From Pleurocapsa sp. PCC 7319 (lineage in GTDB: Bacteria; Cyanobacteriota; Cyanobacteriia; Cyanobacteriales; Xenococcaceae), in assembly GCF_000332195.1 (NCBI RefSeq), contig NZ_KB235922.1, forward strand, positions 930,001-994,000: a stretch of DNA of 64,000 nt. Reading direction: 5' to 3'. Below are positions 16,348-38,411 of this stretch, piece after piece. A model generated the notes under the pieces. That model worked only from the letters and a program-made list of their open reading frames with translations. It was not told the origin of the DNA and made no database searches. The translations under genes were made by a program, and so were the position numbers. Numbering within the stretch: the first letter of the stretch is position 1; each line of letters starts with the position of its first letter.

Positions 16348-17619
16348 TTATTCAGAAATTGCATATTGATTATTTTTAGCTATGACTAAAGAGTAGGATA
16401 CTGCGACATAAATCGCCCAAAAGGAGCTACTCAGATCTGAAAATGTTCCTTCCGTTAAATTTGATAAAAAGATATACGTCAAAATGAGGAGAGGCCAGAA
16501 TCCCTCAGGACTGTTAGTTTTTCTCAACAATGCTAGCGACTGTGTTGTAGTACTTAAAAAACTGGCAACAAAAACAGCTAAACCTACAAATCCTATTGAT
16601 AGCCAAAGATCCAGAAATCCATTGTGAGAATAAATGACTGGTATTCTCACTGCCAACTGTATATAGGCAGAAGGACCGCTTAAACCATTCCAAAATGCAG
16701 CTAATCCATAACCCAACCAAGGACGAAGCTGAATTTGTTCCCATACAGCTTGCCAGATAAAAATTCTACCTGACAACGTGGCATCTTTGCCTACAGAACT
16801 AAACAGAGTATCTGAACCTATGTATCCAGCAATCCAAATTAAACTGGCAATACCCACAATGGTCACAGCTAAGACGGCTGAAACCATTACTTCATATCGC
16901 CAACGAAAAATACGATAAACCAGGCACAACATCAGCATGACGGCAAAAGTAGCTAAAGCTGTTGTTGATTTAGACATAACCATGGTGGCGCAGCTAAGGA
17001 CGAGTAGACACCAATAGATCCAACTATATTTACCTCCTCGAAGAGCATTTAACCAAAAGATTACTCCTCCAGGTGCCATAAAGGCTCCAAATTGGTTTTT
17101 ATGAGTAAAAACTCCCCGCATCGCACCTTCATGAATTCCACCCATTATCCCGTAATAGGGTATGGCGATTACAAATAATAAGCTCAAAATTAGCAATATA
17201 CCGTAAGTCCAGCCAATAAGTTTCAATTGTTCCTCTAGAGTGTAGCGAGTTGCCAAATAAAGACCAAAACCTGTGGTACCAATCGCATACACAGTAAACC
17301 TCATAGTTTGGCTGGGATTAATTGACCAAAAATAAGAGAAACAAACGATTCCGATGAGAATCCAAAGAAGTTTATTACTAGAAATGGTTGCCAGTACTTT
17401 TTTCCAGCGTAAGGCTAATAAGATGAAGGTCACAAAATAGATCAAGACCGATATTTTTGCATGGAGAGAAAGATCGAAGTTCGCAATGATAATGCCGTCT
17501 CCCTCATTTGCTCCTTTAATTAAAAATAGAGGTGTAATAGCTTGAGATATATGAATTAAAGTGCAGATTGAAAAAACTATTTCAAATATTCTGAGTATAT
17601 TATTTGTGCTTTTTGCCAT
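16348..17619 (-). CDS. O-antigen ligase / Wzy-type polymerase family membrane protein
   Basis: A 423-aa protein with about ten or more membrane helices and a long periplasmic loop typical of the Wzy_C (O-antigen ligase/polymerase) family. The loop contains GRIFIWQAVWEQIQLRPWLG and a conserved His in YSHNGFLDLWLSIGFVG. Such proteins either polymerise repeat units (Wzy) or ligate glycan to an acceptor (WaaL); in a flippase- and Wzc-containing cyanobacterial locus, polymerase is more likely (inference). It is co-directional with the flippase and the GT2 gene. Confidence 0.85.
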   Translation of the reverse strand: MAKSTNNILRIFEIVFSICTLIHISQAITPLFLIKGANEGDGIIIANFDLSLHAKISVLIYFVTFILLALRWKKVLATISSNKLLWILIGIVCFSYFWSINPSQTMRFTVYAIGTTGFGLYLATRYTLEEQLKLIGWTYGILLILSLLFVIAIPYYGIMGGIHEGAMRGVFTHKNQFGAFMAPGGVIFWLNALRGGKYSWIYWCLLVLSCATMVMSKSTTALATFAVMLMLCLVYRIFRWRYEVMVSAVLAVTIVGIASLIWIAGYIGSDTLFSSVGKDATLSGRIFIWQAVWEQIQLRPWLGYGLAAFWNGLSGPSAYIQLAVRIPVIYSHNGFLDLWLSIGFVGLAVFVASFLSTTTQSLALLRKTNSPEGFWPLLILTYIFLSNLTEGTFSDLSSSFWAIYVAVSYSLVIAKNNQYAISE

Positions 17620-17775
17620 AATCTAAATACTATCAAATTGAAACAAATTTAAAAATAAATCTAAAATATTTTCTGAACTTTAGTTTTATAGATAGTTTTT
17701 GGTCGGCTAAATCTTTATTTTTAACGCCAGCAAAATATCTTTTAAACTCTACTTTTTAATGTAAGCAATCAAAAG

Positions 17776-18768
17776 TCAAATTAATATACTTAATCGCTTG
17801 GAGAAAAAAATAGATAATATTTGGTTATCGAAAACAGTAATCAGCTTATTTATAAAATCAATCAAAACATAAGGACAGATAAGTATCTGTCTTAAAGCAC
17901 TCAAAAGTTTTTTTTGTTTAAAGTATTCTACTGTACGATAGTAAGCTAGCCTGTTTTTAAAAGTTTTGAGATTTTGATATATTACTTTAAGTAGTTCAGG
18001 ATTTGCTTCAGAAACGTTTTCAAAATTTATAAAGCTTTGAGTTATTTCCCAAGACTGGGCTAAATACTCGGTTGGCTTTCTGCTAGAAAGAGACAGGTCA
18101 CGAATTCGATAATAATAATAGGGATGAGCTATTAGTAAAAAACGCGCTTTCTTGAGCAAACATTGTAAATAAAGCACAAAATCTTCCCCGACACTAATTA
18201 ATTCGTTGTACTCAAGATTGTGTTTGTGCAAAAATTCTCGTTTGATCAAGGGTTTAGTATAGCCATAACTCCATTTTTTGGGAGCATTTATCGGAGCAGG
18301 GCGATCGGTTTGCACGAATCTAGCAGCGTCGATTAATTCCCAAGAGATAATCTGTTGTTGATTTTCTTGTAGCAAAGTACTCCAAGGAGATTTTTCTTGT
18401 TCTCGAACTAAAAATAAATCATCGGCAACCAGATCGGCATTTTGTTCTAATGCAACTTTTAGCAAATTTTCTAACCGTCTAGGTGCATACCAATCGTCTG
18501 AATCGAGAAGAGCAATCCAGTTTCCCTGTGCTCTTCTAATTCCCAAATTGCGAGCGCAACTTACGCCTCTATTTTGCAAATTCTCAATAATTGTGAGTCG
18601 ATGATCATTAAAGCTTCGAGCAATTTTTAGAGTTGAATCGGTTGAAGCATCATCAACTAAAATAATTTCAAAATTGTGGTAAGTTTGCGCAAAAACTGAT
18701 TTTAGAGCTTGAGCGATATAATCTTCACTGTTATACGCAGGTATTACAACTGATACTACTGGTTTCAT
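17776..18768 (-). CDS. Family 2 glycosyltransferase
   Basis: A 330-aa GT-A fold glycosyltransferase from ATG 18768; the longer reading begins with TTG one codon earlier. N-terminal motif VSVVIPAYNSEDYIAQAL, nucleotide-binding LVDDASTDST and the DxD-like ALLDSDDWY mark family GT2. The C-terminus is basic and weakly hydrophobic, suggesting peripheral membrane association. It would add a sugar to the lipid-linked repeat unit before flipping. Donor and acceptor cannot be read from sequence. It is the only clear sugar transferase in the minus-strand polysaccharide block. Confidence 0.9.
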   Translation of the reverse strand: MKPVVSVVIPAYNSEDYIAQALKSVFAQTYHNFEIILVDDASTDSTLKIARSFNDHRLTIIENLQNRGVSCARNLGIRRAQGNWIALLDSDDWYAPRRLENLLKVALEQNADLVADDLFLVREQEKSPWSTLLQENQQQIISWELIDAARFVQTDRPAPINAPKKWSYGYTKPLIKREFLHKHNLEYNELISVGEDFVLYLQCLLKKARFLLIAHPYYYYRIRDLSLSSRKPTEYLAQSWEITQSFINFENVSEANPELLKVIYQNLKTFKNRLAYYRTVEYFKQKKLLSALRQILICPYVLIDFINKLITVFDNQILSIFFSKRLSILI

Positions 18769-18902
18769 CAATCTTGATTGTCCAAATAAAGCATGCTTGT
18801 AACTTACAATCCAAATAATTATTTAATATTTTGTTACTTTGCTTATCGCTCAAATATTAAATATTCATTAAAATTTAAGACATTTTTATGAAGTCATGCC
18901 AA

Positions 18903-20579
18903 CTATACTGAACCAGAAGCATTTTGAAACAAGGTTTTTCCATCAAAATACTGGGGGATTTCTGCGTTCATTAAATTTAAAATGGTGGGAGCTAAATCTA
19001 CGGTCTCACCTGAAGAAAAACCCGTCCCAGCAGGAACATCGGGTCCTTTTGCCAGTAGAAAACCTTGACCTTTATGACCACCGGCACGGCAGTGAGTTAA
19101 CGGACCAACCCGTCCCAATCTTGAACTGTCAACTACATCTGTAATTGGTTCTTGCCATATTACAACTAGGTCTGCATCTGGTAGCTTAGGATTGTCGTCT
19201 AGGGGCGTGGAATGAGTTTTAACTACTTGTTTAACTACTCGATGTCCGTTTCTACCGTCTACAAGGTCATGGAGAATTTCGGTTAATTCTGTACATAAAG
19301 CATCATACTCAGAAGCCTCAACAACTCCATCACGATCTCTTCCCTTGAGGTTAATCCGAATATGACCATTGGTAAATGCTGGTAAAGCAAATGCTTTCAT
19401 TTCTGGCCACAGAGGAGAATACCACATACTGGGCATCCAGCCCATAGCTAATTCCTGCTCTATTGGCTCATCTAATAAGCTATAAGGAGAAAGCAAACCA
19501 TGTTTTGAACCTCTCAAAAATTTTTTATGAGTCCAAGTACGGAATAATTTTTTCAGGGGATTGGGTTCGTAAACTTGACTCCAAATCTCTCCCGGCCAAG
19601 AGTTCCTAATCGGTTTAGTTACAATCGGATCTGGAGTAGAGCCAACTTTACCAGGAGCGATCGCCGCTTTACCAAAGTGAAAGCGATATAGTAACTCTGG
19701 TAATACAGCCATACTTAATAGATCGGTAAAATTGGCTGCCATACCATGAACGGAAAAACATAATACATTAACATCTTGGGGAGCAGACTCTAAAATCTCG
19801 CCAATAGCAGTATCAACTTGCTGATAGACATTTAATACTGGATCGGGTTTAGTTCCTTTGTTACTGAGAAAGTTATATACAGGGTGATCTGCCTGGCTAT
19901 GGTTGTATAAGTCATGACCTACAGTATGAGTTTCCCCAAATACCATCAAAAACAAATCCCATTGTTCCTGTTTTAGTAGTTCACAGGCGATCGCGCAGTG
20001 TCCCTCGATGCTTTGTGTCAAAGCTTCTTGAATCCAAGTGACATATTTAGGGTTCCACCATAAACCATTATCATTATGTAAAACTGGATTTTTGCCGTAT
20101 TTTTGAATAATCTGGTCGAAAATTTCGGGGGGATTAGAAGCGCTCACAGTATAGGGATAATGTCCTCCCCAACCTAAAATTTGCACTCCATTAAGATTAT
20201 TAGTAAGAGTTGTAACGGGAACATCCAAGACTGCTACTTTGTAATTTTCTCCCAGAGCATAAAAAGGAGGATATTCTTGATAGTCATAACCGCTGGTAAC
20301 AATATCACAGACTATTTTGTAATTGTCTGGATTGTAGCTAACAGTATCCCAATAGCCTAAAGTATCAGCACGACATCCTGTAGAAAAAGTTGCCCACAGA
20401 GGCTCTGTGGTCGAATATTCTGTCGGGACACCGCAGTAATTTACTGTATTATCTAAACGTCCATAAATTCCTGCTTGACAAATCCTGCTTAGATTAGGTA
20501 GGTGTCCTGCCGCCATCCAGTCTTCAATTAATCTAGGTTCAGCAGCATCTAAACCAAGCACGATTGTTGATTGTTTCAT
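18903..20579 (-). CDS. Alkaline-phosphatase-superfamily phosphodiesterase-like enzyme
   Basis: A 558-aa protein of the type I phosphodiesterase/nucleotide pyrophosphatase clan. It shows VLGLDAAEP (Asp11), a nucleophile candidate Thr64 in PLWATFSTG, GETHTVGHD (His218, His222), FSVHGM (His278) and a late GGHKGQG His. By eye, the usual metal-ligand Asp of the DHG motif is Val277 and the usual Asp before the His pair is Glu216, so metal binding may be altered; this may be general in its cyanobacterial subfamily. No signal peptide, so it is probably cytosolic. Located between GT2 and the tyrosine kinase, it may act on a glycan or nucleotide-sugar intermediate (inference). Confidence 0.8.
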   Translation of the reverse strand: MKQSTIVLGLDAAEPRLIEDWMAAGHLPNLSRICQAGIYGRLDNTVNYCGVPTEYSTTEPLWATFSTGCRADTLGYWDTVSYNPDNYKIVCDIVTSGYDYQEYPPFYALGENYKVAVLDVPVTTLTNNLNGVQILGWGGHYPYTVSASNPPEIFDQIIQKYGKNPVLHNDNGLWWNPKYVTWIQEALTQSIEGHCAIACELLKQEQWDLFLMVFGETHTVGHDLYNHSQADHPVYNFLSNKGTKPDPVLNVYQQVDTAIGEILESAPQDVNVLCFSVHGMAANFTDLLSMAVLPELLYRFHFGKAAIAPGKVGSTPDPIVTKPIRNSWPGEIWSQVYEPNPLKKLFRTWTHKKFLRGSKHGLLSPYSLLDEPIEQELAMGWMPSMWYSPLWPEMKAFALPAFTNGHIRINLKGRDRDGVVEASEYDALCTELTEILHDLVDGRNGHRVVKQVVKTHSTPLDDNPKLPDADLVVIWQEPITDVVDSSRLGRVGPLTHCRAGGHKGQGFLLAKGPDVPAGTGFSSGETVDLAPTILNLMNAEIPQYFDGKTLFQNASGSV

Positions 20580-20661
20580 TTTATGATGTATGAGAGCAGC
20601 TCCAAGTAATTGTTAATTCCTAAGGGATACGAATAAAATAGCAAAATTATATTATGTAATT

Positions 20662-22854
20662 TTAAGCAGTCGCTGTCTTGGAATGGGTGCTTTCTGAGGG
20701 TTTAGAAAAATAGTTTTTACTATATTTCGCATGATAAGAATAGCGATCAAACTCATTCGGTTTGACACCATTGATAACCATCCCTAAAACCTTTTGGGAT
20801 AGGTTGGCATTAGTTATAGTTTCCTGCGCCAATTCAGCACTTTCAGTTTCGACTATGCCTGGTCTAGTTACAAATAAAATCCCATCGGCTAGTTTACTGA
20901 GGGTTAAGACATCTGCTGTTACAGATAATGGAGGGGCATCAATAACCACCAGATCATATTCTTTTCTAGCCATTGCAACTAATTCGCTCATTTCTAGTGA
21001 ATCTAACAATGCCAGAGGATTAGGGGCAATTGTTCCTGAGGTTAGTAAGTCTAGTTGCTTCATTGGCTGAACCACCACCTGAGATATGGATTTCTTGTGC
21101 GCTACTATATCTTTGACTCCCGCTCGATTACTCACTTGCCATAGTTCATGTTGTGAAGCTTTTCTTAAATCACCGTCAATAATCATAACTTTACGACCTA
21201 ACTGAGCCATTGCTGCTGCTAAATTGGCGGTAACCGTTGATTTTCCTTCTCCTGGAACTGAGCTAGTCATCAAAATAACTTTAGGTTGTCGTTTTATAGA
21301 CAAAAATTTCAAGTTAGTTTGAATCATACGATAAATTTCGCTGGCAAAGGAATCCGGCTCCCTTTGAACGACAATTCCTCTTTGACTATCTTGAAGGGAG
21401 TCTAAGGGAATAATACCTAGAACTTGATAAGTAAACTTTTGCTTGACTTCGGGAATAGTTTTAAGAGTGCGATCCTGCATCTCAAGCAAAATTGCTGTCA
21501 GATTAGAGAGGAAGAGTCCCATCAATACTCCTAAAGCCATTAATGCCATTCTTCCCGTACTACCTTCTTCGGGAACTTTACCCAATTCTATGACCTCAGC
21601 ATTACCTGTTTGTTGATTGATCAATAATTCCAGTTCTTGCTTGTTACCCAACAAAGTGCTGTAGGTAGAACGGGCACTGTCAACCTCACGTAATAATGAT
21701 TGCTCCTGTTTCTCCAATCTAGGTATGTCTTTGGCTCGATCTAGATAGACTTGCTGATATTGATATAGAGAAGCTAGTTCTGTCTGTAAACTTAACTCCT
21801 CTATCTTGAGACCAATAAATTTTTCTAACTGATTTTCCTTAAGATTTCCGCTTTGGAGTAACCCCTCAGAAACTTGAGCTCCTACATATTGACGAATCAA
21901 TTGTTGCAGTTGAGCATTTAAATTTTCTTTTTTCTCATTTAGGCTAGCAACGGCTGGGTGGTTATCTTTAAACCTCTGGCGTTCTTGAGATAATTGCGTT
22001 TCTGTAGCACCTAACTGCTCCAGAATACTTTGTACTTGGGGAGTACTACCTAGTTGATTAGCAGCGATCGCTTGTTTTAAATCTAAGCCTAATTGGTTTT
22101 GCAAACTACTAGTCTGAGCCTTCTTACCCTGAAGATCAGCTCCGACAGAGGAAATCTGACGGTTGAGATTTCCCAGTTCCGTGACTAAAATTCTTTTTTC
22201 CTCTTTGAGATCTACAACTTGATTTTTTTCATAAAAATCCTGTAAGCGAGATTCTAAAGATTGAAGTTTACCCTCTATTTTAGGAATAGTATTAGTAATA
22301 AAACTGTCGGCATTAACAGTAGCAGATTGATTACTAATCGCCTGTTCTTTAATATATATATCCATCAAGGCGTTTACAACTTTAGAAGCAGTAACAGGGT
22401 CTTGATCTCGATAGCTTAAGGAAATAACATCAGTTCCACCTACAATTTCTACATTCAATCGTTTCTCTAACTCTTTAGTATTGAGAGGATTTCCTTCTTC
22501 ATCTTCTAACTTAAGCTGATCGATAGTTTGTTGCAAAACTGGCTGAGAAGTTATGCGCAACTCCTCTGTACTTAGAGGCGTTTGATCGTTTAATAATGAA
22601 CTAAACTGGTTTGTATCTTCGCCAATATCAACTAAAGATCCTACTGGGTTCTTTTTGAAAAGAATTTTTCCTTCTGACTTGTACGTTTTTTCTAAGAAAC
22701 TACTCAGAAAAGCCGTTGTACCAACCGTGAAAACAAAAACAGCAAAGGCTGGAACCCAACGTCGTTTTAGTTTTAATAAATATTCTCCTATATTGATGTC
22801 AAGCTCTTCTCGCTTGTTAAGATAAGCTCCTTTATCTTTTTGAAAATTAGCCAT
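20662..22854 (-). CDS. Wzc-type polysaccharide co-polymerase / tyrosine autokinase
   Basis: A 730-aa inner-membrane protein that controls polysaccharide chain length and export. Order: Wzz-type chain-length domain with a first membrane helix near residues 33-55; long periplasmic coiled coils (190-420); second helix near 435-455; cytosolic BY-kinase with Walker A VPGEGKSTVTANLA, Walker A' VMIIDGDLR and Walker B LVVIDAPP. The C-terminus carries a Tyr cluster (DRYSYHAKYSKNYF), the usual autophosphorylation site. Length is normal for fused Wzc proteins. It is the first gene of the polysaccharide block; a 519-bp spacer with its promoter lies upstream. Confidence 0.95.
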   Translation of the reverse strand: MANFQKDKGAYLNKREELDINIGEYLLKLKRRWVPAFAVFVFTVGTTAFLSSFLEKTYKSEGKILFKKNPVGSLVDIGEDTNQFSSLLNDQTPLSTEELRITSQPVLQQTIDQLKLEDEEGNPLNTKELEKRLNVEIVGGTDVISLSYRDQDPVTASKVVNALMDIYIKEQAISNQSATVNADSFITNTIPKIEGKLQSLESRLQDFYEKNQVVDLKEEKRILVTELGNLNRQISSVGADLQGKKAQTSSLQNQLGLDLKQAIAANQLGSTPQVQSILEQLGATETQLSQERQRFKDNHPAVASLNEKKENLNAQLQQLIRQYVGAQVSEGLLQSGNLKENQLEKFIGLKIEELSLQTELASLYQYQQVYLDRAKDIPRLEKQEQSLLREVDSARSTYSTLLGNKQELELLINQQTGNAEVIELGKVPEEGSTGRMALMALGVLMGLFLSNLTAILLEMQDRTLKTIPEVKQKFTYQVLGIIPLDSLQDSQRGIVVQREPDSFASEIYRMIQTNLKFLSIKRQPKVILMTSSVPGEGKSTVTANLAAAMAQLGRKVMIIDGDLRKASQHELWQVSNRAGVKDIVAHKKSISQVVVQPMKQLDLLTSGTIAPNPLALLDSLEMSELVAMARKEYDLVVIDAPPLSVTADVLTLSKLADGILFVTRPGIVETESAELAQETITNANLSQKVLGMVINGVKPNEFDRYSYHAKYSKNYFSKPSESTHSKTATA

Positions 22855-26673: not shown

Positions 26674-28503
26674 TTATTTTAGGTCTATGGCTAGAAGTTC
26701 AATAAAAATATCATTTAAGCTAAATATTTCTGGAATGTATGCCGATTCAAGTTTAATATTTTGGTCTGCTTGCAAATATTGTTTTAATTGCCGAGAAGGT
26801 CTAAGTATAAAGATATTCTCAAATTGATTTGTGTAAGACAAATAATTTTCTGCCGGATTAATCAGTTTAAATTTTACTTGAGCAGATAAATAATGACTAA
26901 GAGACAACATATCCATCAAAGAATCTGCTTCTGCAAATATTAAAGGGGAATCTTGTTGATTAATAATCTGGGCAATCGGAATATTGTGAATATTGCGGTT
27001 TTTTTGATATATTGGCGATTTATTGAGGTTTAAAGTACAAGAAACAATCCCAACGGTCAATAATAATAAAGCGATCGCTCGCCAAAAAGTTTTAGTTTTA
27101 ATCGATTGAAAATCATAATGTAAAAAAAGATATTTATTAAATGTATAAGCAACAGCTAACTGGATACCTATTTTGGAGGGCATTAAATAGCGGGGAGTAG
27201 CTGAACTTAGTCCTTGATTTATTAAGTCAAGAATAAATAAGGGTATTGGTATTGCCAGAATTAAACTGGCGATAAACATCCATGTATTTGTATTTGATTT
27301 ATTTTTAAGATAATAGCTTGAATATGCTGATAACATCAGAATAAATAAAGCCACTATCGTACCAATAATTACCACTGGATTGAAATAATCGTGGTTTACT
27401 AGTATTGATGGATAATTAAATATCAAAATACTGACAATAAAAAAACAAAATACACCTGAATAACTGATGATTTTGTGTGTGTTTATAGAGAATTTGTTCC
27501 ACAGAGATACAATTAGAAACAAACTGCTAAACAAGAATAAACTACCAACTAAAATAATCCCAATCTGAATCGGGTTTGTATTAGGATCTAGAGGCAAATC
27601 CCCAAAGATAAGTAAAATACTACCAATCCAAACAGCGATTACTGTTGCGAAATCAAAGTAATTACGCATCCAGGTGGTATTTTCATGTACCAAGTGAGTA
27701 CTATTGAAAATTACTATTAACCAAGGTGAAAAAGCCAAGATGATAATTACCATTGCTAGCAAATACTTTTTCATCACTTGAAATTTAAAATTTTTTCTTA
27801 GTAATAGTAAATATACTCCTTGAGCGATCGCGACAAAAATAGAAAATAAAGAAGTATAAAAAGCAAAAATTGTACTAAAAATGTAACCTATCCAAGGCTG
27901 CCAGCTATTGCTCCGCAAAGCTTTGAGAAAACTAGCACTCATTAACAATAAGCCGATTGTCCATAGACTGTAAGGTCGAGCTTCCTGAGCATAAGCAACA
28001 AAAAACGGTGAAACAGACATTAAACTTACCGCTATCCAGCTAACTGTATAACTGGCAAATAACTCTCTGGCTAACCAATACAAACAGGGAAAAATTAACA
28101 AGCTGAATATAGCCGATAGAATCCTAATATTGGCTATTGAACTACTTGTTAACTGAACCAAAATACGAGTCAGTATAAAATATAAAGGAGCGTGTTCGGG
28201 GCTTTTTAATAAAGCATTAAAGGTATCCTGAATTGTTCTTTCAGGAGTTATTCGCTGATAGCTTAAAAGGGTATCAATATCTACAATATCTTGGCTAATT
28301 AAATCATCAATAATTTCGGCTTGAGTGTAACCAGCTACTCTCGTGATTGTGGCTGCTTCATCGACCCAAAATACTTTAGTTTCTAGATTGGCAAATCGAA
28401 AAAATACACCCAGCCCTAATAAAACGGTGATTAAAAATATTAATGAAAATTGATAAAAATGATGGCGATTACCAAAACGATCGCTTTTAGTCAAAAGACC
28501 CAT
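26674..28503 (-). CDS. GT39/PMT-like polytopic glycosyltransferase
   Basis: A 609-aa protein with about eleven to thirteen membrane helices, of the dolichyl-phosphate-mannose-mannosyltransferase-like group (GT39/GT83 type; uses polyprenyl-phosphate sugars on the outer face). The first outer loop has the catalytic-type Asp-Glu pair in KVFWVDEAATITR, and SPEHAPLYFILTR follows, both typical. The C-terminal domain is soluble. It diverges from the PKS gene across 165 bp and ends 17 bp from the mobile repeat. Target may be a lipid or glycan; whether it serves the PKS product is untested. Confidence 0.85.
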   Translation of the reverse strand: MGLLTKSDRFGNRHHFYQFSLIFLITVLLGLGVFFRFANLETKVFWVDEAATITRVAGYTQAEIIDDLISQDIVDIDTLLSYQRITPERTIQDTFNALLKSPEHAPLYFILTRILVQLTSSSIANIRILSAIFSLLIFPCLYWLARELFASYTVSWIAVSLMSVSPFFVAYAQEARPYSLWTIGLLLMSASFLKALRSNSWQPWIGYIFSTIFAFYTSLFSIFVAIAQGVYLLLLRKNFKFQVMKKYLLAMVIIILAFSPWLIVIFNSTHLVHENTTWMRNYFDFATVIAVWIGSILLIFGDLPLDPNTNPIQIGIILVGSLFLFSSLFLIVSLWNKFSINTHKIISYSGVFCFFIVSILIFNYPSILVNHDYFNPVVIIGTIVALFILMLSAYSSYYLKNKSNTNTWMFIASLILAIPIPLFILDLINQGLSSATPRYLMPSKIGIQLAVAYTFNKYLFLHYDFQSIKTKTFWRAIALLLLTVGIVSCTLNLNKSPIYQKNRNIHNIPIAQIINQQDSPLIFAEADSLMDMLSLSHYLSAQVKFKLINPAENYLSYTNQFENIFILRPSRQLKQYLQADQNIKLESAYIPEIFSLNDIFIELLAIDLK

Positions 28504-28668
28504 TAAATTCTATGCTTGATTGAGCTACTTACCAGAAATTAATTAAACTGGCGATTGACAAAATTAGCAAGCGATCGCCTTGAAGTTTACCATTTTTCCT
28601 GAACTCTTTTTCCATAAATTAGCTTAAGCCCAATCGACTTCCGTAAGAAGACCAATGGTAGAAAGCGA

Positions 28669-31600
28669 ATGAACTGTGCTACTCTACACCACAGTCAAAT
28701 GATTTCGATCCAACCTTTATCAGCTATGCAATTAGAGCCTATTGCAATTATTGGCATTGGCTGCCGTTTTCCTGGCGCGAACAATCCAGAAGCCTTTTGG
28801 CAACTTATTCGAGATGGAGTAGATGCAATTTCAGAAGTGCCACCATCACGCTGGAATCTCGAAAAATACTACGATCCAGATTCCAACAAACCAGGTAAAA
28901 CCCATAGTCGCTGGGGTGGTTTTGTAGATGATATTGACTGTTTTGACGCTCAATTTTTTGGTATTGCTCCAAGAGAAGCTGTGACCATGGATCCGCAACA
29001 ACGTCTGTTGTTGGAAGTTACTTGGGAAACTCTGGAAGATGCCGGACAAATTCCTGAAGATTTACGGGGTAGCAACACAGGAGTATTTATTGGAGTTGGC
29101 ACTCACGATTACTCAATTATGATGTGGCAGCAACCTGTAAATGAACCTTACGCAACGACGGGCACTGGCAATTGTATTGCTGCTAACCGCATTTCCTATA
29201 CTTTTGATTTTAAAGGGGCAAGTTTGGCGATCGACACAGCCTGTTCCTCCTCTTTGGTAGCAGTCCATCTGGCTTGTCAGAGTATTTGGTCTGGTGAATC
29301 GACTATGGCTTTGGCTGGTGGGGTAAATATGCTGCTATTGCCAACGATTATGGTGGGCTTTACTAAAGGGGGCTTTATCTCTCCAGACGGACAGTGCAAG
29401 AGCTTTGACGCTGAGGCTAATGGTTATGTTCGCAGTGAAGGAGCTGGTTTGATTTTATTAAAGCCTCTGGCAGAAGCCCAGAGAGACGGCGATCGCATAT
29501 ATGCTGTAATTCACAGTACAGCAGTTAATCAAGATGGTTATAGTAAGGGATTAGCCGCACCTAATCCTAAAGCTCAGGAAGAGGTTTTAAGAGAGGCTTA
29601 TCGTCGTTCGGGAATTAATCCGAGTGCAGTGGATTATGTTGAAGCACATGGTACAGGAACAAAAGTAGGCGATCCGATTGAAGCTAGCGCCTTAGGAGCA
29701 GTTTTAGGAAAAAATCGCCAGCCAGGAGATTACTGCCAGCTTGGCTCAGTAAAAACTAATATTGGTCACGTAGAAACCGCCGCAGGGGTAGCAGGAGTGA
29801 TCAAGGTAGCCTTGGCATTAAAACATAAACAAATTCCTCCCAGTCTGCACTTTCATAACCCCAATCCAGAGATTAATTTTGAAGAATTACATTTGCAAGT
29901 ATCAACTGAATTGACACCTTGGCAAACTGATACGCCCGCCATAGCAGGAGTCAATTCTTTTGGTTTTGGTGGTACGAATGCTCATGTGGTTATGGGAGAA
30001 GTACCTCTAGAAATTAAATCTCAAGAGGAAAATAATAATGATATTCCTTATATACTTAGTCTCTCAGCGAAAAATCAGCCCGCATTACGGGAATTAGCCA
30101 AGCAATATCTTAATTTACTGGATAATAGCAGTATAAATGTAGATCAGCTCTGTTTTACTGCTAATAACCAGCGCAGTCACTTTAATCATCGTCTTACCTG
30201 CGTTACTCAATCTCCGCAGCAGTTACAGCAGCAATTAACTGCTTACCTCTCCGATAATGAAATAGCAGGATTACGGTCAAATATCATTCCTAGCGATCGC
30301 CCTAATCCACAGATCGCTTTTCTCTTTACGGGACAAGGCTCACAATACCCAGATATGGGTAAACAGCTTTATCAGACTCAAGCAGTATTTAAACAGGCAG
30401 TCGATCGCTGTGCTGAAATCCTCGAACAATACCTAGATCGATCTTTATTAGAAATTCTGTATCCCTCAAAGTTTGATCCTCAGAACCCAACGCCCCAGAT
30501 CAATCAAACCCAGTATACTCAACCTGCTATTTTCACCATCGAATATGCCTTAACTCAACTATGGATGTCCTGGGGCATCCAGCCTAATTTCGTCATGGGG
30601 CATAGTATCGGAGAATATGTAGCTGCAACTATTGCGGGGATTTTTAGCTTAGAGGATGCCCTCAAACTGGTGGCGAAAAGGGGCAAGCTGATGCAAGCTT
30701 TACCATCTGGGGGCGGAATGTTAGCTGTATTTGCCAGTAAAGATGACGTAGAACAACTAATTCAACCTTATCTTGAGCAAGCTTCAATCGCAGCAATTAA
30801 TAGCCCTGAAAATATCGTCATTTCAGGAAATCAAAATACTTTAGATTTAATTCAGGGTGATTTAATTGCAGCAGAAATTAAATATACACCTCTGAAAGTA
30901 TCTCATGCTTTTCATTCTCCCCTGATGAAACCGATGCTGGAAAAGTTTCAAGCGATCGCAGCAGAGATTTCCTATTCCCTTCCCCAAATCCCGATTATCT
31001 CCAACGTTACAGGACAACTTGCAGATAAAGCGATCTCCACTCCTGATTATTGGGTAGACCATATCTTGCAACCAGTTAAATTTGCTGATGGGTTTAAATT
31101 TCTGTCTCAGCAAGGGACTGATATTTGCTTAGAAATTGGTGCCAAACCGAGCTTATTAAGTTTGGGTAAGGCAATTATTTCCGACACCATAAAACAACCT
31201 TTATTTCTGCCGAGTTTGTCTCCGAAACAGGATAACTGGCAGATAATGCTCAATAGTCTGGTCCAACTTTACCACCAAGGAATTAAAGTTAATTGGAATC
31301 TGGATGATAGAAAATCAACTCCTAGCTTAAGGCTTCCTACCTATCCTTTCCAACGTCAGCGATATTGGTGGGAACCAGAGGATTTATCTGCCAGTACTGA
31401 ATTTAATTATCGCAGTAAGTTTCATCCTTTACTCGGCGATCGCCTGGATTTAGCTGATAGTTCGGAAATTCGCTTTCAAAGTCAAATTAGTGCTAATAAT
31501 CCCTTCTACCTGAAGGATCATTGTCTAGAATCTCAAGTTGTCTTTCCTGCCACAGCCTACTTGGAAATAGCTCTGGCAGCAGGCAGTCAGATATATGAAA

Positions 31601-34600
31601 CTAGCCATCTAAAACTAGAACAGTTTACAATTCATCGACCACTATTATTATCAGACAAGGTAACTAAATTACAGGTGTTGCTAACCCCTGATGAATCTGG
31701 TTATGGCGTGCAGATTTTTAGCTGCGAGCAAGCTGATTTTGTTCTGCAAGCTGAAGTTGCCCTAAGTCAGCCAGAATCGACAGCAATTGAACAGCTAAAT
31801 ATACAGGAATTACAACAACAGTTAACCTCTTATCCCCAAGCGATCGCTGATTACTATGAGCAGTTACGCCAACAAGGATTAAGCTATGGTAACAGCTTTC
31901 AGGGGATTCAGCAGATCTGGCAGGGAGCAAACAGAGCGTTAGGAAAGATTAAGTTACCAGAAACTTTAGTTACCCAAGGCTATCAACTACACCCAGCTTT
32001 ATTAGATTCCTGTTTACAACTGGTTGGTGCGGCTTGGTCAAATGACGATGCGGGTCTGTATTTACCTGTAGGTATTGAGTCTTTTCAGTTTTATCAATGT
32101 CCAGAGGATGCTGTCTGGGCTTATGTGCAAGTAAAGCCAGGTAATCAAATTATTAAAGCCGATTTTCAGTTAATTAACGAATCAGGAGAAATAGTCGGGG
32201 CGATCGCTGGGTTGGCTCTACAATATCTTAGTCGTCAATCCCTCAGTAAATTACTTTCTATTACTTCTACTGAGTCAGCAGATAAAGTAGATAAACATGT
32301 CTATGAAATTAAATGGCAAGAGCAAAAACTAGATGATATTAGCCAGCGTACTGAGTCTTTATCAAACAAATGGTTGATTTTTGCCGAACAAAATGAATTT
32401 GCCGAACAGTTGAGCGCAAATTTAGGAACTGAGAATTGTATTTTGGTTTTTCCTGGTGAACAGTATCAAACTTTAGGCGAGAGAAAATATCAGGTTAATC
32501 CTGTTAAAATTGAACACTTTCGACAATTATGGGCAAATCTTGATCGCTCAGCAATCTGGGGAGTAATTCATCTTTGGGCAATAGAAGAAAATCAAACGCT
32601 GTTTGAAAATACACTAGAAGATATAAAAGCAAAACAAACTAAAAGTTGTGCCAGTTTGTTGCACTTGATGCAGTCAATAGAGCCAAGACGGTTTAAACAA
32701 CTGTGGTTAGTAACTTATGGAAGCCAATTACAATCCAATCCTAATTTTTCAGGCTCAGTTTGGGGTTTGGGTAAAACTATAAATCAGGAATATCCCAACT
32801 TACGCTCTGTATGTCTCGATTTAGAAACTCTGGATGTAGATATCTTAATCAGAGAAATACAGTCAGATAGTTCAGAAACTCAAATTGCCTATCATAATCA
32901 ACAACGCCACGTAGCCAGATTAGTAGAACAACACAACAATGTAACAGATAGTTTTCGTCTTCAGCTATCTGATTATGGCACTTTAACTAATCTCAATCTG
33001 GCACCATTACAACGTAAAGTTCCCGCACCTGGAGAAGTAGAAATTCAAGTATGCGCCAGTGGTGTTAACTTCCGTGATGTACTGAATGCCTTGGGAATGC
33101 TCAAAGAATATTTAGAGCAAATGGGCTTTACCGACTCGACCCAAGTGCCTTTTGGTGGCGAATGTGCAGGGGTTGTGGTAGCGGTAGGAGAAGGAGTAAC
33201 TGATTTTAAAGTCGGCGATGAGGTAATTGCAGCACAGGCAGTAGGTAGCTTGAGTAGTCATCTGACTGTGCCCGCTAAATTTGTGATTAGTAAACCCAGA
33301 AATCTTAGTTTTACGGAAGCAGCTACGATTCCCACCACTTTTTTGACAGCCTATTACGGCTTAAATTATTTAGTCAAAATTCAACCAGGCGACCGCATTT
33401 TAATTCATTCCGCAGCAGGAGGAGTCGGACAAGCAGCGATTCAGTTAGCACAACAGGCAGGAGTAGAAATATACGCTACGGCATCTCCTGGTAAATGGGA
33501 TTTTCTCAAAGCTACGGGAATTCAATATGTGATGAATTCCCGTAACCTCGATTTTGCCCAGGAAATTATGGAGTTAACTAAAGGGGAAGGAGTTGATTTA
33601 ATTCTCAATTGCTTTAATGGCGATTTTATTCCGAAAAATCTCGAAATACTATCTCCTAAAGGTAGATTTGTGGAAATCGGCAAGGTGGGTATTTGGAGCA
33701 AAGAAGAAGTAGCCGCAAAACGGGCAGATGTTAGTTATTTCCCCTTTGATTTATTAGAGGTATCTAATAGTAACCCTGATTTAATCGAAACCCTATTTAA
33801 TGAATTACGCCAGCAGTTTATTACAGGTAAATTAAAACCATTACCTCATAAAGTTTTTCCAGTCGCCGAAGCAGCAAATGCCTTTCGTTACATGGCACAG
33901 GCGAAGCATATTGGTAAGGTAGTTATTTCCATGCCTAGTAACGGGAATTTAGCCATCGCCAAACCCGATGCTAGCTATCTAATTACGGGAGGATTAGGAG
34001 CATTAGGCTTACAGGTAGCTGGTTGGTTAGTAGAACAAGGGGCAAAGCATTTAGTTTTACTAGGTCGTAATCAGCCATCAGCAGAGGCTCAAATAAAAAT
34101 TTCTGAGCTGGAAAAAACTGGTGTTGTCATTCAGACTCAATCAGTAGATATTACTAATTACCAACAGCTAGAAGCTGTAGTTCAAGATTTAGAGTTTCCG
34201 TTGCGGGGTGTGATTCATGCAGCAGGGATTATTAATGATGGTTTATTAGAAACCCTTGACTGGGAAAGCTTTCAAGCTGTTTTAGCGCCCAAAGTACAAG
34301 GGAGTTGGAATTTACATCAAGTAACGCGATCGCAACCTCTAGAATGGTTCGTCTGCTTTTCTTCCATTGCTTCAGCATTTGGTTCAATTGGTCAAAGCAA
34401 CTATGCTGCTGCAAACGGGTTTATGGATAGTCTGATGCAATATCGACGTGGTTTGGGTTTACCAGGCTTAAGTATTAATTGGAGTATCTGGGAAACGGGA
34501 ATGGCACAGCAGCTAAACACTTCTCAGCAAAAACGGTTAAGCCAACAAGGATTGAAAGCGATCGCACCCGAACAGGGTGTAGATATTCTGCAAGAGCTAT

Positions 34601-36330
34601 TACAAAAGCAGTCTGAGCAAGCGATCGTTTTTCCCGTAGATTGGTCAAAATTCCTCGAAAATGTCAACGATCCTTTCTTTGAGCAACTACGACCAGAAGT
34701 AGAAGATCAATCAGCAGCACCAGTCTCCACTTTTTTACAGCAACTAGCCACTACTCCAACGGGCGATCGCCATTTAGTATTACAAGAACACATACGCAGT
34801 CAGTTTGCGACAATTCTTGGCTTTAACGATCCTGAAGCCATTGACACCCAAGAGAAGTTTGCCGACTTGGGTATGGATTCTCTCATGGCAGTAGAGTTTA
34901 AAAATAGCCTTCAAGCTAGTTTAGGTAATGCGGTATCTCTTACAGCAGCCTTTGATTACCCCACTGTAGAACTATTAACGGAATATATAGCAGGGGAATT
35001 AACTGAAGAGATACTTGTAAAGGCAAAAGGCTGTTTGCCCGCTCAAAAACAGGAATATTCACCCGCACAGCAGCAAAATCCCACACCTAAAACCCAACCC
35101 CTAAAACCCAACACCCAATCCCCCAAAATAAATCCTGCTTTCTATCAGTTTCAACTCACCCCCGAATATATTAATCTCAAAAAAGACTTAGAACGGGTCG
35201 AAAAATTGGGTAATCCTTTCTTTTCTGTCCATCAGGGAATTGCGGGAGATACAACTCAGATTGGCGATCGCCAGCTAATTAATTTTTCTAGCTACAATTA
35301 TTTGGGGATGTCTGGCGATCCAGTAGTTAGTCAAGCAGCCCAAAATGCGATCGCCAAATACGGAACATCGGTTTCAGCCAGTCGCCTATTATCTGGGGAA
35401 CGACCATTACATCGGGAACTAGAACAAGAAATAGCTGATTTTCTGGGTACAGAAGACTGTATTGTTTATGTTGGCGGTCATGCAACTAACGTAACCACGA
35501 TTGGACATTTGTTTAATCCCAATGACTTAATTATTTGTGATTCTTTGAGCCACAATAGTATTCAGGAAGGATGTCATCTATCTGGCGCAACTATTATTGA
35601 GTTTCCTCATAATGACTATCAGGCTTTAGAGGAAATCCTAAATCAGGAGCGAGAACAATATCAAAAAGTATTAATTGCGATCGAAGGTGTTTATAGTACT
35701 GATGGAGATCTAGCACCATTACCCGAAATAATTAAGCTCAAACATCAATACAAGACCTTTTTACTAGTAGATGAGGCTCATTCCATTGGTACTCTTGGCT
35801 TGTCTGGTAGAGGCATCGGGGAACACTTTTGTGTCCAACCCACCGATGTGGACTTCTGGATGGGAACACTAAGTAAATCTTTTGCTAGCTGCGGTGGCTA
35901 TATCGCAGGATGTAGAGAACTTATCGAGTATCTTAAATATACTGCTCCTGGCTTTGTGTTTAGTGTTGGGATGTCTCCAGCAAACACTGCTGCTGCACTA
36001 GCCGCAATTCAATTACTCCAAGAAGAACCAGAACGAACGATTCAATTACAAAGCAGAGCTAAATTCTGTTTAGATTTAGCCAAAAGTTACAACCTCAATA
36101 CAGGTTCTAGTGCCGATTCTCCTATTATTCCTATTATCGTCGGCGAACCACAAAAAGCTGTCACCTTATCTCAAATTCTTGGTCAACAGGGTATTAACGT
36201 TAACCCGATGGTTTATCCTTCAGTTCCTTATGATGCTGCTAGATTGCGCTTGTTTATTACTTGTTTGCACACTGAATCACAGATTACAGAGACTTTATGC
36301 AAAATAGTGAAAGCTGTTCAAGAATTTTAA
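28669..36330 (+). CDS. Type I reducing PKS fused to alpha-oxoamine synthase (KS-AT-DH-ER-KR-ACP-AONS)
   Basis: A 2553-aa multienzyme. KS (22-447): Cys192 in DTACSS, His327 and His367. AT (550-860): Ser646 in GHSIGE, and HAFH (746-749), which indicates malonyl-CoA. DH: His951 and Asp1113 in HPALLDS. A structural pseudo-KR lies at about 1200-1420. ER has HSAAGGVGQAA near 1580. KR has TGGLGALG (1773-1780), Tyr1912 and Asn1916, with IND matching the B-type LDD position. ACP has Ser2071 in GMDSL. A Pro/Gln linker leads to a PLP-dependent alpha-oxoamine synthase (2140-2550) with DEAHS (2368-2372) and the PLP Lys2403 in TLSKSF. All key residues look intact, so the predicted release is decarboxylative condensation of the chain with an amino acid, giving an alpha-amino ketone. 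No thioesterase or partner genes are adjacent. ATG 28699 is an alternative start. Confidence 0.95.
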   Translation: MNCATLHHSQMISIQPLSAMQLEPIAIIGIGCRFPGANNPEAFWQLIRDGVDAISEVPPSRWNLEKYYDPDSNKPGKTHSRWGGFVDDIDCFDAQFFGIAPREAVTMDPQQRLLLEVTWETLEDAGQIPEDLRGSNTGVFIGVGTHDYSIMMWQQPVNEPYATTGTGNCIAANRISYTFDFKGASLAIDTACSSSLVAVHLACQSIWSGESTMALAGGVNMLLLPTIMVGFTKGGFISPDGQCKSFDAEANGYVRSEGAGLILLKPLAEAQRDGDRIYAVIHSTAVNQDGYSKGLAAPNPKAQEEVLREAYRRSGINPSAVDYVEAHGTGTKVGDPIEASALGAVLGKNRQPGDYCQLGSVKTNIGHVETAAGVAGVIKVALALKHKQIPPSLHFHNPNPEINFEELHLQVSTELTPWQTDTPAIAGVNSFGFGGTNAHVVMGEVPLEIKSQEENNNDIPYILSLSAKNQPALRELAKQYLNLLDNSSINVDQLCFTANNQRSHFNHRLTCVTQSPQQLQQQLTAYLSDNEIAGLRSNIIPSDRPNPQIAFLFTGQGSQYPDMGKQLYQTQAVFKQAVDRCAEILEQYLDRSLLEILYPSKFDPQNPTPQINQTQYTQPAIFTIEYALTQLWMSWGIQPNFVMGHSIGEYVAATIAGIFSLEDALKLVAKRGKLMQALPSGGGMLAVFASKDDVEQLIQPYLEQASIAAINSPENIVISGNQNTLDLIQGDLIAAEIKYTPLKVSHAFHSPLMKPMLEKFQAIAAEISYSLPQIPIISNVTGQLADKAISTPDYWVDHILQPVKFADGFKFLSQQGTDICLEIGAKPSLLSLGKAIISDTIKQPLFLPSLSPKQDNWQIMLNSLVQLYHQGIKVNWNLDDRKSTPSLRLPTYPFQRQRYWWEPEDLSASTEFNYRSKFHPLLGDRLDLADSSEIRFQSQISANNPFYLKDHCLESQVVFPATAYLEIALAAGSQIYETSHLKLEQFTIHRPLLLSDKVTKLQVLLTPDESGYGVQIFSCEQADFVLQAEVALSQPESTAIEQLNIQELQQQLTSYPQAIADYYEQLRQQGLSYGNSFQGIQQIWQGANRALGKIKLPETLVTQGYQLHPALLDSCLQLVGAAWSNDDAGLYLPVGIESFQFYQCPEDAVWAYVQVKPGNQIIKADFQLINESGEIVGAIAGLALQYLSRQSLSKLLSITSTESADKVDKHVYEIKWQEQKLDDISQRTESLSNKWLIFAEQNEFAEQLSANLGTENCILVFPGEQYQTLGERKYQVNPVKIEHFRQLWANLDRSAIWGVIHLWAIEENQTLFENTLEDIKAKQTKSCASLLHLMQSIEPRRFKQLWLVTYGSQLQSNPNFSGSVWGLGKTINQEYPNLRSVCLDLETLDVDILIREIQSDSSETQIAYHNQQRHVARLVEQHNNVTDSFRLQLSDYGTLTNLNLAPLQRKVPAPGEVEIQVCASGVNFRDVLNALGMLKEYLEQMGFTDSTQVPFGGECAGVVVAVGEGVTDFKVGDEVIAAQAVGSLSSHLTVPAKFVISKPRNLSFTEAATIPTTFLTAYYGLNYLVKIQPGDRILIHSAAGGVGQAAIQLAQQAGVEIYATASPGKWDFLKATGIQYVMNSRNLDFAQEIMELTKGEGVDLILNCFNGDFIPKNLEILSPKGRFVEIGKVGIWSKEEVAAKRADVSYFPFDLLEVSNSNPDLIETLFNELRQQFITGKLKPLPHKVFPVAEAANAFRYMAQAKHIGKVVISMPSNGNLAIAKPDASYLITGGLGALGLQVAGWLVEQGAKHLVLLGRNQPSAEAQIKISELEKTGVVIQTQSVDITNYQQLEAVVQDLEFPLRGVIHAAGIINDGLLETLDWESFQAVLAPKVQGSWNLHQVTRSQPLEWFVCFSSIASAFGSIGQSNYAAANGFMDSLMQYRRGLGLPGLSINWSIWETGMAQQLNTSQQKRLSQQGLKAIAPEQGVDILQELLQKQSEQAIVFPVDWSKFLENVNDPFFEQLRPEVEDQSAAPVSTFLQQLATTPTGDRHLVLQEHIRSQFATILGFNDPEAIDTQEKFADLGMDSLMAVEFKNSLQASLGNAVSLTAAFDYPTVELLTEYIAGELTEEILVKAKGCLPAQKQEYSPAQQQNPTPKTQPLKPNTQSPKINPAFYQFQLTPEYINLKKDLERVEKLGNPFFSVHQGIAGDTTQIGDRQLINFSSYNYLGMSGDPVVSQAAQNAIAKYGTSVSASRLLSGERPLHRELEQEIADFLGTEDCIVYVGGHATNVTTIGHLFNPNDLIICDSLSHNSIQEGCHLSGATIIEFPHNDYQALEEILNQEREQYQKVLIAIEGVYSTDGDLAPLPEIIKLKHQYKTFLLVDEAHSIGTLGLSGRGIGEHFCVQPTDVDFWMGTLSKSFASCGGYIAGCRELIEYLKYTAPGFVFSVGMSPANTAAALAAIQLLQEEPERTIQLQSRAKFCLDLAKSYNLNTGSSADSPIIPIIVGEPQKAVTLSQILGQQGINVNPMVYPSVPYDAARLRLFITCLHTESQITETLCKIVKAVQEF

Positions 36331-36455: not shown

Positions 36456-38411
36456 ATGAATGTCATTTTAGAGTTTTTTTATAAGTCTCATAAAATCAAA
36501 AAAATTGTCATTATTTTAATTACTTGGTGCTTTTGCCTTTATTTGTTCTTAGTCCCAACTGCGGCCGAGGTAAAATCCTCGAGCGCCTCGCTAGATCGCA
36601 AAGCTGATATCGTCTTAGATGGTCGGAAGTTATTTGAAATTAGTAGTTCTGGTAATTTTTCGGCTACGCAACGAGCCGAAAAAATCAATTCTCTACTGCA
36701 AACCAAACTTAAACACTACTCCAATTCCCGACAAGCTTTAGATTTAACTGTAGCTAAACAGTCTGATTGGACAGTAATTCGCGTAAATAATCGTCACTTG
36801 CTAACAGTTAGCAAAAATGACTTGATTCCTGGAATGATGGCTCAAGAACAGGCTGAAATCTGGCAAGAGCAATTAGAGTCAGCTTTAGAGCGAGCAATCA
36901 AAGAAAGATCGCCTGCTCATCTCCAATGGACTATTAAAATGATGGCGATCGCTTTTACTCTAGTTGCAGGAATTCAATTTGGTTTATTTTGTCTTAAACG
37001 CCACTATAGTCGCAAACGTTTAGAATCACCTCAGCGGTGGATTTCTTGGGCTATTTTAGCTATTTTGGGCTTACAAACTTTAATTTGGCTGATATTCGTC
37101 TATTACTGTACTTATTTGTTTCCCCAGACTAGAACTTGGCAGTACAATCTGTGGCAGTCTGTTAACGATACTTTTAATACTGAAATCTTTGATTTTGGTG
37201 GAGAGATGGCTATATCTCTACGGCGCATAATCATCTTAATCTTTCTGGGTATTGGCTGGTGGATATTTGTCAGGTGGTTTTCGCAGGTGCTTAAGTTAAA
37301 TATTCTCCCCCTGACAGGGTTTGAAAGTACCTTGCAAAATTCGATCGCTTTTTTGACTCGTTATGGATTATTATTCCTGGGTATATTGTTAATCTTGAAT
37401 GCTGGAGGTATTGATTTTCGTTCTCTAACTATCGTCATCAGTGCCTTAGGCGTAGGAATTGGCTTTGGGTTACAAAATATAGCCAAAGACTTTGTTAGCG
37501 GTATAATTTTGACTTTGACTCGCCCCATAAAAATTGGTGATTTAGTAGAAGTAGGCGAAGACAAGGGCTTAGTGTTGCATATTGGTGCGCGTACTACCGA
37601 AATTTCCCATATAGATCGCCATATTATGACTATTCCTAACTCGCGTTTTATCGAGGAAACTGTCAGAAATTGGCATCGCAGCGGTTTAACTAGGGTAAAA
37701 GTTTATGTAGATGTGGCTTATGACTCCGATCGCGATTTGGTATATAAAGCTTTGTTAGCAGCAGCCCAAGTCTATCACCCAGATATTCTCAAACATCCAC
37801 CACCAAAAGCCAAATTTCGTAATTTTGGCGATCGCTCTTTACTATTCCGCGTAGTAGTTTTTATTAAGGATCCTTTTAAAGAACCAAAAGTTAGAAACCA
37901 TCTACAAAAGCATATCGATCTTAATTTTCGCAAGTATGGCATTGAAATTCCGTTTCCCCAGCGAGATCTCAATTTTAATATTCCTCAGCTCGATGAGTTA
38001 GTCGCTAACTTAGTTAAAATCTATGCCCCTTCTCAACCTAAATTGTATTACCCTCAAACAAAAACAGATTCAAGCGATCGCCAATTATCATCAGTAGAAG
38101 AATTAACTATTCGTGATGAATATGACTGGGATTCTTTGGTAGCAGCCATGCGAGGGGAACATGGCGTATCCATTACCGATCGTCGTTATGGCTTAAAAAC
38201 CTATTCTAAAGTTTTCTTGGGTTCAGAAGCCGTATCTTGGTTAATACAGTACGAAAAAGCTACTTTAGCCGAAGCGATAGCCATCGGACAATTGATGATC
38301 GAACAAAATATTATTCACCATATATTAGACGAACACAATTTTAAAAACGAACCGCTATTTTATCGCTTTTATCTAGATGAAAATAACCATAGATCAAAGC
38401 TTGATGATTGA
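36456..38411 (+). CDS. MscS-family mechanosensitive channel with C-terminal DEP domain
   Basis: A 651-aa protein with an N-terminal signal-like helix (about 15-35), a periplasmic segment, about four further membrane helices, then the MscS pore helix and beta domain: GVGIGFGLQNIAKDFVSG near residues 332-349, followed by RPIKIGDLVEVG. The cytoplasmic vestibule runs to about 530. The last 100 residues form a DEP-type domain (YSKVFLGSEAVSWLIQYEKA). MscS channels release solutes on hypo-osmotic shock; DEP domains usually bind membranes or protein partners, so regulated gating is a reasonable inference. It stands 113 bp ahead of the RelA/SpoT-like gene on the same strand. Confidence 0.88.
   Translation: MNVILEFFYKSHKIKKIVIILITWCFCLYLFLVPTAAEVKSSSASLDRKADIVLDGRKLFEISSSGNFSATQRAEKINSLLQTKLKHYSNSRQALDLTVAKQSDWTVIRVNNRHLLTVSKNDLIPGMMAQEQAEIWQEQLESALERAIKERSPAHLQWTIKMMAIAFTLVAGIQFGLFCLKRHYSRKRLESPQRWISWAILAILGLQTLIWLIFVYYCTYLFPQTRTWQYNLWQSVNDTFNTEIFDFGGEMAISLRRIIILIFLGIGWWIFVRWFSQVLKLNILPLTGFESTLQNSIAFLTRYGLLFLGILLILNAGGIDFRSLTIVISALGVGIGFGLQNIAKDFVSGIILTLTRPIKIGDLVEVGEDKGLVLHIGARTTEISHIDRHIMTIPNSRFIEETVRNWHRSGLTRVKVYVDVAYDSDRDLVYKALLAAAQVYHPDILKHPPPKAKFRNFGDRSLLFRVVVFIKDPFKEPKVRNHLQKHIDLNFRKYGIEIPFPQRDLNFNIPQLDELVANLVKIYAPSQPKLYYPQTKTDSSDRQLSSVEELTIRDEYDWDSLVAAMRGEHGVSITDRRYGLKTYSKVFLGSEAVSWLIQYEKATLAEAIAIGQLMIEQNIIHHILDEHNFKNEPLFYRFYLDENNHRSKLDD

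Follow-up and report, generated by a model that had tools for sequence, protein, structure and literature searches.

Polyketide synthase (PKS)-coupled synthesis of sphingoid bases was published in 2025 for Pseudomonas. According to excerpts of PMC12134224, C24-C28 sphinganines are made by PfSgaAB of Pseudomonas fluorescens MYb115, a two-gene system of a PKS and an alpha-oxoamine synthase (AOS); PfSgaB has serine palmitoyltransferase (SPT) activity and prefers L-serine nearly exclusively, and the cluster also encodes a KDSR-like SDR. Our Pseudomonas locus L100 matches this layout (PKS, AOS and, five genes on, an SDR); it is presumably orthologous to PfSgaAB, and its AOS stands in for PfSgaB in our tree. 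A second relative is the Sinorhizobium locus L104, whose genes we take to be rkpA-rkpG-rkpH: a PKS-type gene, an AOS 47% identical to the domain described here and an SDR 44% identical to that of our host genome follow one another in a row, each as a gene of its own next to capsule genes. The L104 record carries the title pSymB, and rkp-1 is called chromosomal in excerpts of PMC3557214.

Oxoamine synthase-like domains embedded in assembly lines have been catalogued before. Table 2 of a 2013 survey of PKS/NRPS proteins with embedded Aminotran_1_2 domains (PMC3870968, in excerpt) resembles our case in combining fold-type I AOS-like domains with carrier proteins, and none of the seven Aminotran_1_2 layouts given there is KS-AT-DH-ER-KR-CP-PLP2. 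TamD of Pseudoalteromonas tunicata is set apart by its description in excerpts of PMC4698589, a chain without a PKS module and a proposed pyrrole product. Across titles and the openings of abstracts, a coverage that leaves most subscription journals outside it, we found no description of a PKS-AOS fusion. Only two cyanobacterial sphingolipids had been identified by 2022, and no genetic basis for them had been reported, going by excerpts of PMC8895605.

Here we describe a cyanobacterial fusion of these two activities, encoded in a 64-kb window (the whole stretch of 64,000 nucleotides analyzed, C7:930001-994000 of genome G000, which spans 7.39 Mb and is 99.99% complete). Among named relatives, those closest to G000 are cyanobacteria of the Pleurocapsa type. 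Like PfSgaAB, the system pairs a single-module type I PKS with an AOS, presumed to be of the same clade, and a KDSR-like SDR. PfSgaAB, the closest known system, nevertheless differs in encoding PKS and AOS by two genes, clustered with that for the SDR, whereas here a single polypeptide carries both and the SDR is unlinked; the fused KS, moreover, falls in a clade separate from the Sga/Rkp enzymes. We put at roughly two in three the probability that the window protein is the chain-finishing PKS of a sphingoid-base pathway, with release by the AOS followed by reduction and glycosylation. These data suggest that the Pseudomonas route has relatives in another phylum, in fused form, and the products are probably lipids akin to sphingolipids, for which hardly any genes are known from cyanobacteria. 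Candidate sphingolipid genes in many cyanobacteria would be the fused gene, the related ACP-AOS genes and that of the TSC10-like reductase; Planktothrix (fused) and Microcystis (split PKS and AOS, with the reductase) are among the carriers.

Architecture and distribution of the fusion protein

The window protein has the domain order KS-AT(malonyl)-DH-psiKR-ER-KR-ACP-AOS, with all Pfam matches above their curated cut-offs (Table 1). The first-pass annotation had described one 2553-aa protein with intact KS, AT, DH, ER, KR and ACP and a complete PLP-dependent oxoamine synthase (Lys2403, DEAHS) as its release domain. The Pfam matches, the motifs and the retained PLP-site residues bear this out, and the domain content is that of a fully reducing single-module PKS in which the AOS is the only release domain; to it we add the stretch at residues 1234-1397, matched by PF21394, which we read as a probable structural psiKR. 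Motifs lie at residues 189 (DTACSSS), 325 (EAHGTGT), 364 (NIGH), 644 (GHSIG), 746 (HAFH), 2368 (DEAHS) and 2400 (TLSKS, with Lys2403). The true start may be Met20, because KS homology begins at about residue 20. Scanning positions 28300-28800 for promoters returned no promoter-like site and a single terminator-like site, inside the ORF. Among solved PKSs, mycocerosic acid synthase (9d2z) comes nearest, and residues 21-2090 align with it in one stretch; the two differ in that the aligned chain, at 2124 aa, is too short to include an AOS, and the product class of mycocerosic acid synthase is a different one.

Table 1. Positions of the fusion gene, its domains and two flanking genes in the window
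Feature	Position	Strand	Details
PKS-AOS fusion gene	28669..36330	+	2553 aa, ATG start
KS domain	28735..29856	+	residues 23-396 (ketoacyl-synt 23-270, Ketoacyl-synt_C 278-396); Cys192, His327, His367
AT domain, malonyl type	30319..31260	+	Acyl_transf_1 551-864; GHSIG, HAFH
DH domain	31423..32247	+	PKS_DH_N/PS-DH 919-1193; His951, Asp1113
Putative structural (psi) KR stretch	32368..32859	+	PF21394, residues 1234-1397
ER domain	33028..33927	+	ADH_N/ADH_zinc_N/ADH_zinc_N_2 1454-1753
KR domain	33970..34494	+	residues 1768-1942; Lys1875, Ser1899, Tyr1912, Asn1916
ACP	34792..34989	+	PP-binding 2042-2107; phosphopantetheine Ser2071
AOS domain	35161..36327	+	residues 2165-2553; Aminotran_1_2 2202-2543
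Divergent GT39-type (PMT_2) glycosyltransferase	26674..28503	-	609 aa
MscS-type mechanosensitive channel	36456-38411		C-terminal DEP domain; downstream of fusion gene

Loss of catalytic residues, which the first-pass annotation had flagged as a threat to its reading, was looked for by aligning 11 full-length fused proteins; the other members are 51-64% identical to the window protein. Every residue checked is invariant apart from two DH positions. The KS triad Cys192/His327/His367, AT Ser646, both histidines of HAFH, DH His951 and Asp1113, KR Lys1875, Ser1899, Tyr1912 and Asn1916, and ACP Ser2071 are all unchanged; the Gly position of the DH H-x3-G-x4-P motif is Ser in the window protein (H951-x3-S) and S, N, E, T or G across the family, and Gln1117 is Q in 10 proteins and H in one. 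The intact domains and this conservation rule out a chance ORF or a decayed gene.

Homologues of the exact fusion, whose search the first-pass annotation had put forward as a check, were gathered from a contig scan with the ACP-AOS end (40 loci), an AOS search of 386 cyanobacterial genomes and tblastn of plasmids. The resulting 12 fused loci are scattered over the cyanobacteria and cluster together in the KS tree as well as in the AOS tree; they comprise that of the window and those of Xenococcus PCC 7305, a Hyellaceae MAG, Pleurocapsa CCALA 161, Chroococcus FPU101 (whose ORF is split across two frames), Pegethrix, Aphanothece, Okeania, genomes G011, G296 and G123, and plasmid p3 of Planktothrix agardhii. 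A fragmented copy from Pleurocapsa MO_192 (L012) and locus L036, whose contig ends at the AOS start, were left out of the trees. A search of 80 relatives placed the fused gene in 10 of the 27 genomes of the window's family, its own included (8 long frames, 2 fragments), and a 536-582-aa frame, the size of an ACP-AOS protein, in 25 of the 27. The 386-genome sample holds four fused genomes, and in G011, G296 and G123 the fused AOS is the sole clade AOS of the genome. Elsewhere the clade AOS is a separate gene after a PKS that lacks an ER (Cyanothece, Microcystis, G237, G235 and G251), follows a small ACP, or sits within FAAL-ACP-AOS and FAAL-acyl-CoA dehydrogenase-ACP-AOS proteins.

Several variants deserve a record of their own. 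The window genome has a second clade AOS, a 548-aa ACP-AOS protein (L079:10949-12595, that is, G000:C7:518949-520595) with sigma-70 family genes on both flanks. A second PKS-AOS fusion of Pleurocapsa CCALA 161 (L131:1-4380, DH-KR-ACP-AOS) is cut at the contig end; no ER was found in it, and it lies ~1.6 kb from a TSC10-like SDR. The Okeania fused protein (L016:2084-11497, 3137 aa) contains an RtxA-repeat-like insertion of ~500 aa between DH and psiKR. The 1683-aa FAAL-acyl-CoA dehydrogenase-ACP-AOS protein of G382 (L081:8968-14019) could yield an unsaturated amino ketone. On an E. coli plasmid (L122:1017-5068), FAAL, epimerase, ACP and AOS are consecutive and adjoin lptF/lptG, and this AOS groups with the SPT references in the AOS tree.

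Putative loader synthases and the origin of the acyl chain

We propose that the KS-AT-DH-ER-KR-ACP portion would use malonyl units to build or lengthen a saturated acyl chain, which its own ACP would carry in thioester linkage, and that the starter probably comes from another protein, a PKS with an A domain in most relatives and a FAAL-ACP protein in G296. Five relatives have a second PKS (four loci) or a FAAL-ACP protein (one locus) directly upstream of the fused gene or ~2 kb away. In G123 and Chroococcus, a loader synthase of the form A-KS-AT-DH-ER-KR-ACP stops a few bases short of the fused gene, on its upstream side (BLASTP did not find a first ACP in the G123 loader), a loader lies directly upstream in Aphanothece, judged by coordinates, and a divergently oriented A-ACP-KS-AT-DH-ER-KR-ACP loader lies ~2 kb off in G011; the order in G296 is FAAL-ACP, fused gene, SDR. 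On one side of the G011 fused gene, the loader PKS, a lone KS, an SRPBCC protein and an SDR fall within ~15 kb, and on the other side are two GT39 genes and a GT4 gene. The window genome itself holds a loader synthase (C7:3,192,749-3,201,064, 2.2 Mb from the window gene), a lone-KS homologue (C7:2,416,415), a GT4 homologue (C7:3,477,480) and the SDR, all at distant sites. The claim that the protein works alone, with no partner cluster, is doubtful in light of both sets of genes.

The loader A domain is closest to McyG and to the solved structure 6ulx, which we take to be the keto-acid enzyme StsA; its best NCBIfam matches are fatty-acyl ligase models, under cut-off. The loader C-terminus and the N-terminal helix of the lone KS are docking-like, and the loader KS type was checked in G000, G011, G123 and G389. 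A search with the loader A domain was unspecific, with 26 of 386 genomes matched at E <= 1e-60, and frames of at least 2600 aa were therefore counted instead. Such loader-size frames occur in three of the four fused genomes versus 8 of the 382 others, and in five of seven named fused genomes. The loader match in Hyellaceae is a 900-aa frame (64% identical), and the matches in Okeania are partial, the best piece (55% identical) lying in a 2089-aa frame; Microcystis, which is non-fused, also has a loader-size frame of 2636 aa.

These loader and FAAL-ACP neighbors, and the loader encoded by the window genome, weaken stand-alone iterative synthesis as the only reading of the protein. An enzyme that makes the whole chain from malonyl-CoA alone is somewhat unlikely in our estimation, and the separation of the fused KS clade from the Sga/Rkp KS clade also speaks against it. 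It does draw strength from the 64-kb window, where no other PKS gene was found, from the fused KS, ahead of which no docking-like N-terminal segment was found, and from the closeness to mycocerosic acid synthase, an iterative enzyme. PfSgaA, too, is reported as iterative in excerpts of PMC12134224. The KS tree was built from a chosen subset of loci and, being rooted at its midpoint alone, is no proof that the coupling to AOS arose independently in the fused and the Sga/Rkp synthases.

A chain-finishing synthase supplied by a partner could belong to a scattered, multi-locus cyanobacterial route to glycosylated, PKS-built sphingolipids whose chain terminus would be unusual. A McyG/StsA-like A-domain loader would start on an aryl, keto or fatty acid, the lone KS and the PKS-AOS protein would extend the chain and release it with serine, and the SDR and GT39/GT4 enzymes would finish the product. 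We hold this full scheme tentatively and think it rather unlikely in its entirety; if true, it would be one more case of a fully reducing PKS joined to an AOS of this clade, here by fusion and perhaps through independent evolution.

The oxoamine synthase clade and a co-occurring reductase

The C-terminal PLP domain would join an amino acid, of which L-serine is the likeliest, to the acyl chain of the acyl-ACP in a decarboxylative condensation; this would form a 3-keto-2-amino lipid and free the chain without a thioesterase. The product is most likely a 3-keto sphingoid base, probably serine-derived, that is then reduced and glycosylated. The relatives of the domain in the PDB, by sequence, are SPT, AOS, KBL, BioF, ALAS and CqsA, placing it among the fold-type I PLP enzymes, with Sphingobacterium SPT as the top match among solved structures (E 4e-72). 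It falls under every NCBIfam cut-off (SPT 335/640, 291/500 and 226/670 bits; BioF 364/426). The phylogeny of the C-terminal domain, another check proposed beforehand, was run against SPT, KBL, ALAS and BioF in IQ-TREE on 60 rows, a chosen subset of the fetched loci plus references. It places the window AOS in a distinct 37-row clade with support of 100/100, apart from all four enzyme types; the four SPT references lie outside it, and there is thus no grouping with known SPTs. The 12 fused AOS domains form one group within it (support 92/95, just under the program's star). The clade also takes in the AOS enzymes of PKS+AOS pairs from Pseudomonas (L100, ~50% identical), Paraburkholderia, Caballeronia, Sinorhizobium (S. 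meliloti L104, 47% identical) and Methylobacterium. The catalytic residues His2295, Asp2368, His2371, Lys2403 and Arg2527 are present in all 12 fused and all 25 other clade members. We reject a misassigned BioF: a BioF-like gene is encoded elsewhere in the window genome (C7:3519826), and cyanobacterial BioF falls outside the AOS clade.

Canonical SPT (3a2b/8guh) shares with the window AOS the PLP-site His, Asp, His, Lys and Arg and Ser243, and differs in its separate clade, in the NCBIfam cut-offs that the window AOS fails to reach and in Asn52, which is replaced by Tyr2209. This Tyr is a clade signature: it occurs in 12 of 12 fused members and, with a single Phe, in 24 of the 25 others, and the position is Asn in all 15 tabulated SPT, KBL, ALAS and BioF references. 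Gly2434, Phe2529 and Cys2408 are further clade-specific changes. These substitutions, like the failure to reach any NCBIfam SPT cut-off, would fit an AOS that uses glycine or alanine and forms a 1-deoxy or nor-sphingoid amino ketone or alcohol, or some other specialized alkyl amine. We consider that outcome unlikely, given the conserved Ser2402, the co-occurring TSC10-like reductase and the serine preference of PfSgaB (near-exclusive in excerpts of PMC12134224), which most likely belongs to the same clade by way of L100. Excerpts of PMC3870968 predict that Ser242 of SPT 3A2B bonds the serine hydroxyl. Its counterpart, Ser2402, is invariant across the clade and is also Ser in cyanobacterial BioF (6/6), and is therefore no proof of serine use.

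In the sphingoid-base pathway that we favor, a TSC10-like SDR (G000:C7:4,364,808-4,365,605) would reduce the 3-keto group to give the 2-amino-3-ol sphingoid base. This window-genome orthologue is 60% identical (the next SDR, 35%) and lies 3.4 Mb from the window gene, unlinked to it. Its best PDB match is TSC10, a 3-ketodihydrosphingosine reductase, at E 4e-30 (next SDR, 2.5e-25); among the 25 NCBIfam matches listed none reaches its cut-off, the top one being a general SDR model (194/215). The SDR directly follows the fused gene in G296 and sits beside several split or FAAL-linked AOS genes. At a threshold of E <= 1e-55, it occurs in 17 of the 386 genomes, namely 13 of the 19 with a clade AOS versus 4 of the 367 others (Fisher p 1e-16, a value inflated, as are all of these p-values, by shared ancestry). 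Three of those four others carry a more distant AOS, ~34% identical, in 1095-1130-aa frames (confirmed as FAAL-ACP-AOS by Pfam in G083 alone), and counting them brings the tally to 16 of 22 versus 1 of 364. All 11 fused-gene genomes tested have the SDR, four from the 386-genome set and seven named, with Planktothrix outside the test; it is absent from 6 of the 19 sampled clade-AOS genomes and from a Planctomycetales genome. In the window's family, the SDR may serve the ACP-AOS enzyme first or chiefly, because frames of that size are found in 25 of 27 genomes. The AOS clade and the co-occurrence of this reductase together support the sphingoid-like product that the first-pass annotation had suggested.

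Glycosyltransferases and neighboring polysaccharide genes

GT39/GT4 enzymes probably glycosylate the sphingoid base, and the divergent GT39 gene of the window is a candidate for this step. The possible link of that gene to the product, raised in the first-pass annotation, has gained substance from homologues that BLASTP places next to the fused gene at 3 of the 12 loci, Planktothrix and G011 among them, and from others that lie, in G391 and G123, within ~3 kb of the SDR. At a fourth locus, L010, a PMT_2 protein too distant for BLASTP adjoins the fused gene. GT39 copies occur in 11 of 11 fused genomes, so their mere presence is uninformative.

Minus-strand genes at 15037-22854 encode a Polysacc_synt flippase-like protein, Wzy_C, GT2, a phosphodiesterase and a GNVR/ParA-type protein (Wzz match under cut-off); between this set and the fusion gene lie a methyltransferase, a nitroreductase and then the divergent GT39. 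This neighborhood would suit a product that serves as the lipid anchor or carrier of the adjacent surface polysaccharide, the role put forward in excerpts of PMC3557214 for rhizobial rkpA and rkpGHIJ, and in L100, L102 and L104 the Sga/Rkp-type pairs do adjoin capsule or polysaccharide genes. We regard such a role as quite improbable, in that BLASTP found no relatives of the window's Wzx-/Wzy-like proteins in the flanks of the other 11 fused loci (short flanks, with partial Pfam coverage).

The minus-strand surface-polysaccharide set, taken over its full extent in the window (8884-22854), also includes an MBOAT protein and a carbamoyltransferase. Downstream of the fusion gene lie housekeeping genes as well as the mechanosensitive channel. 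A member of the Asp/Arg beta-hydroxylase family recurs near the fused gene or GT39 (L080:6249-7013, L126:5597-6352 and L138:7325-8083, with PF05118 scanned in L080) and might hydroxylate the lipid.
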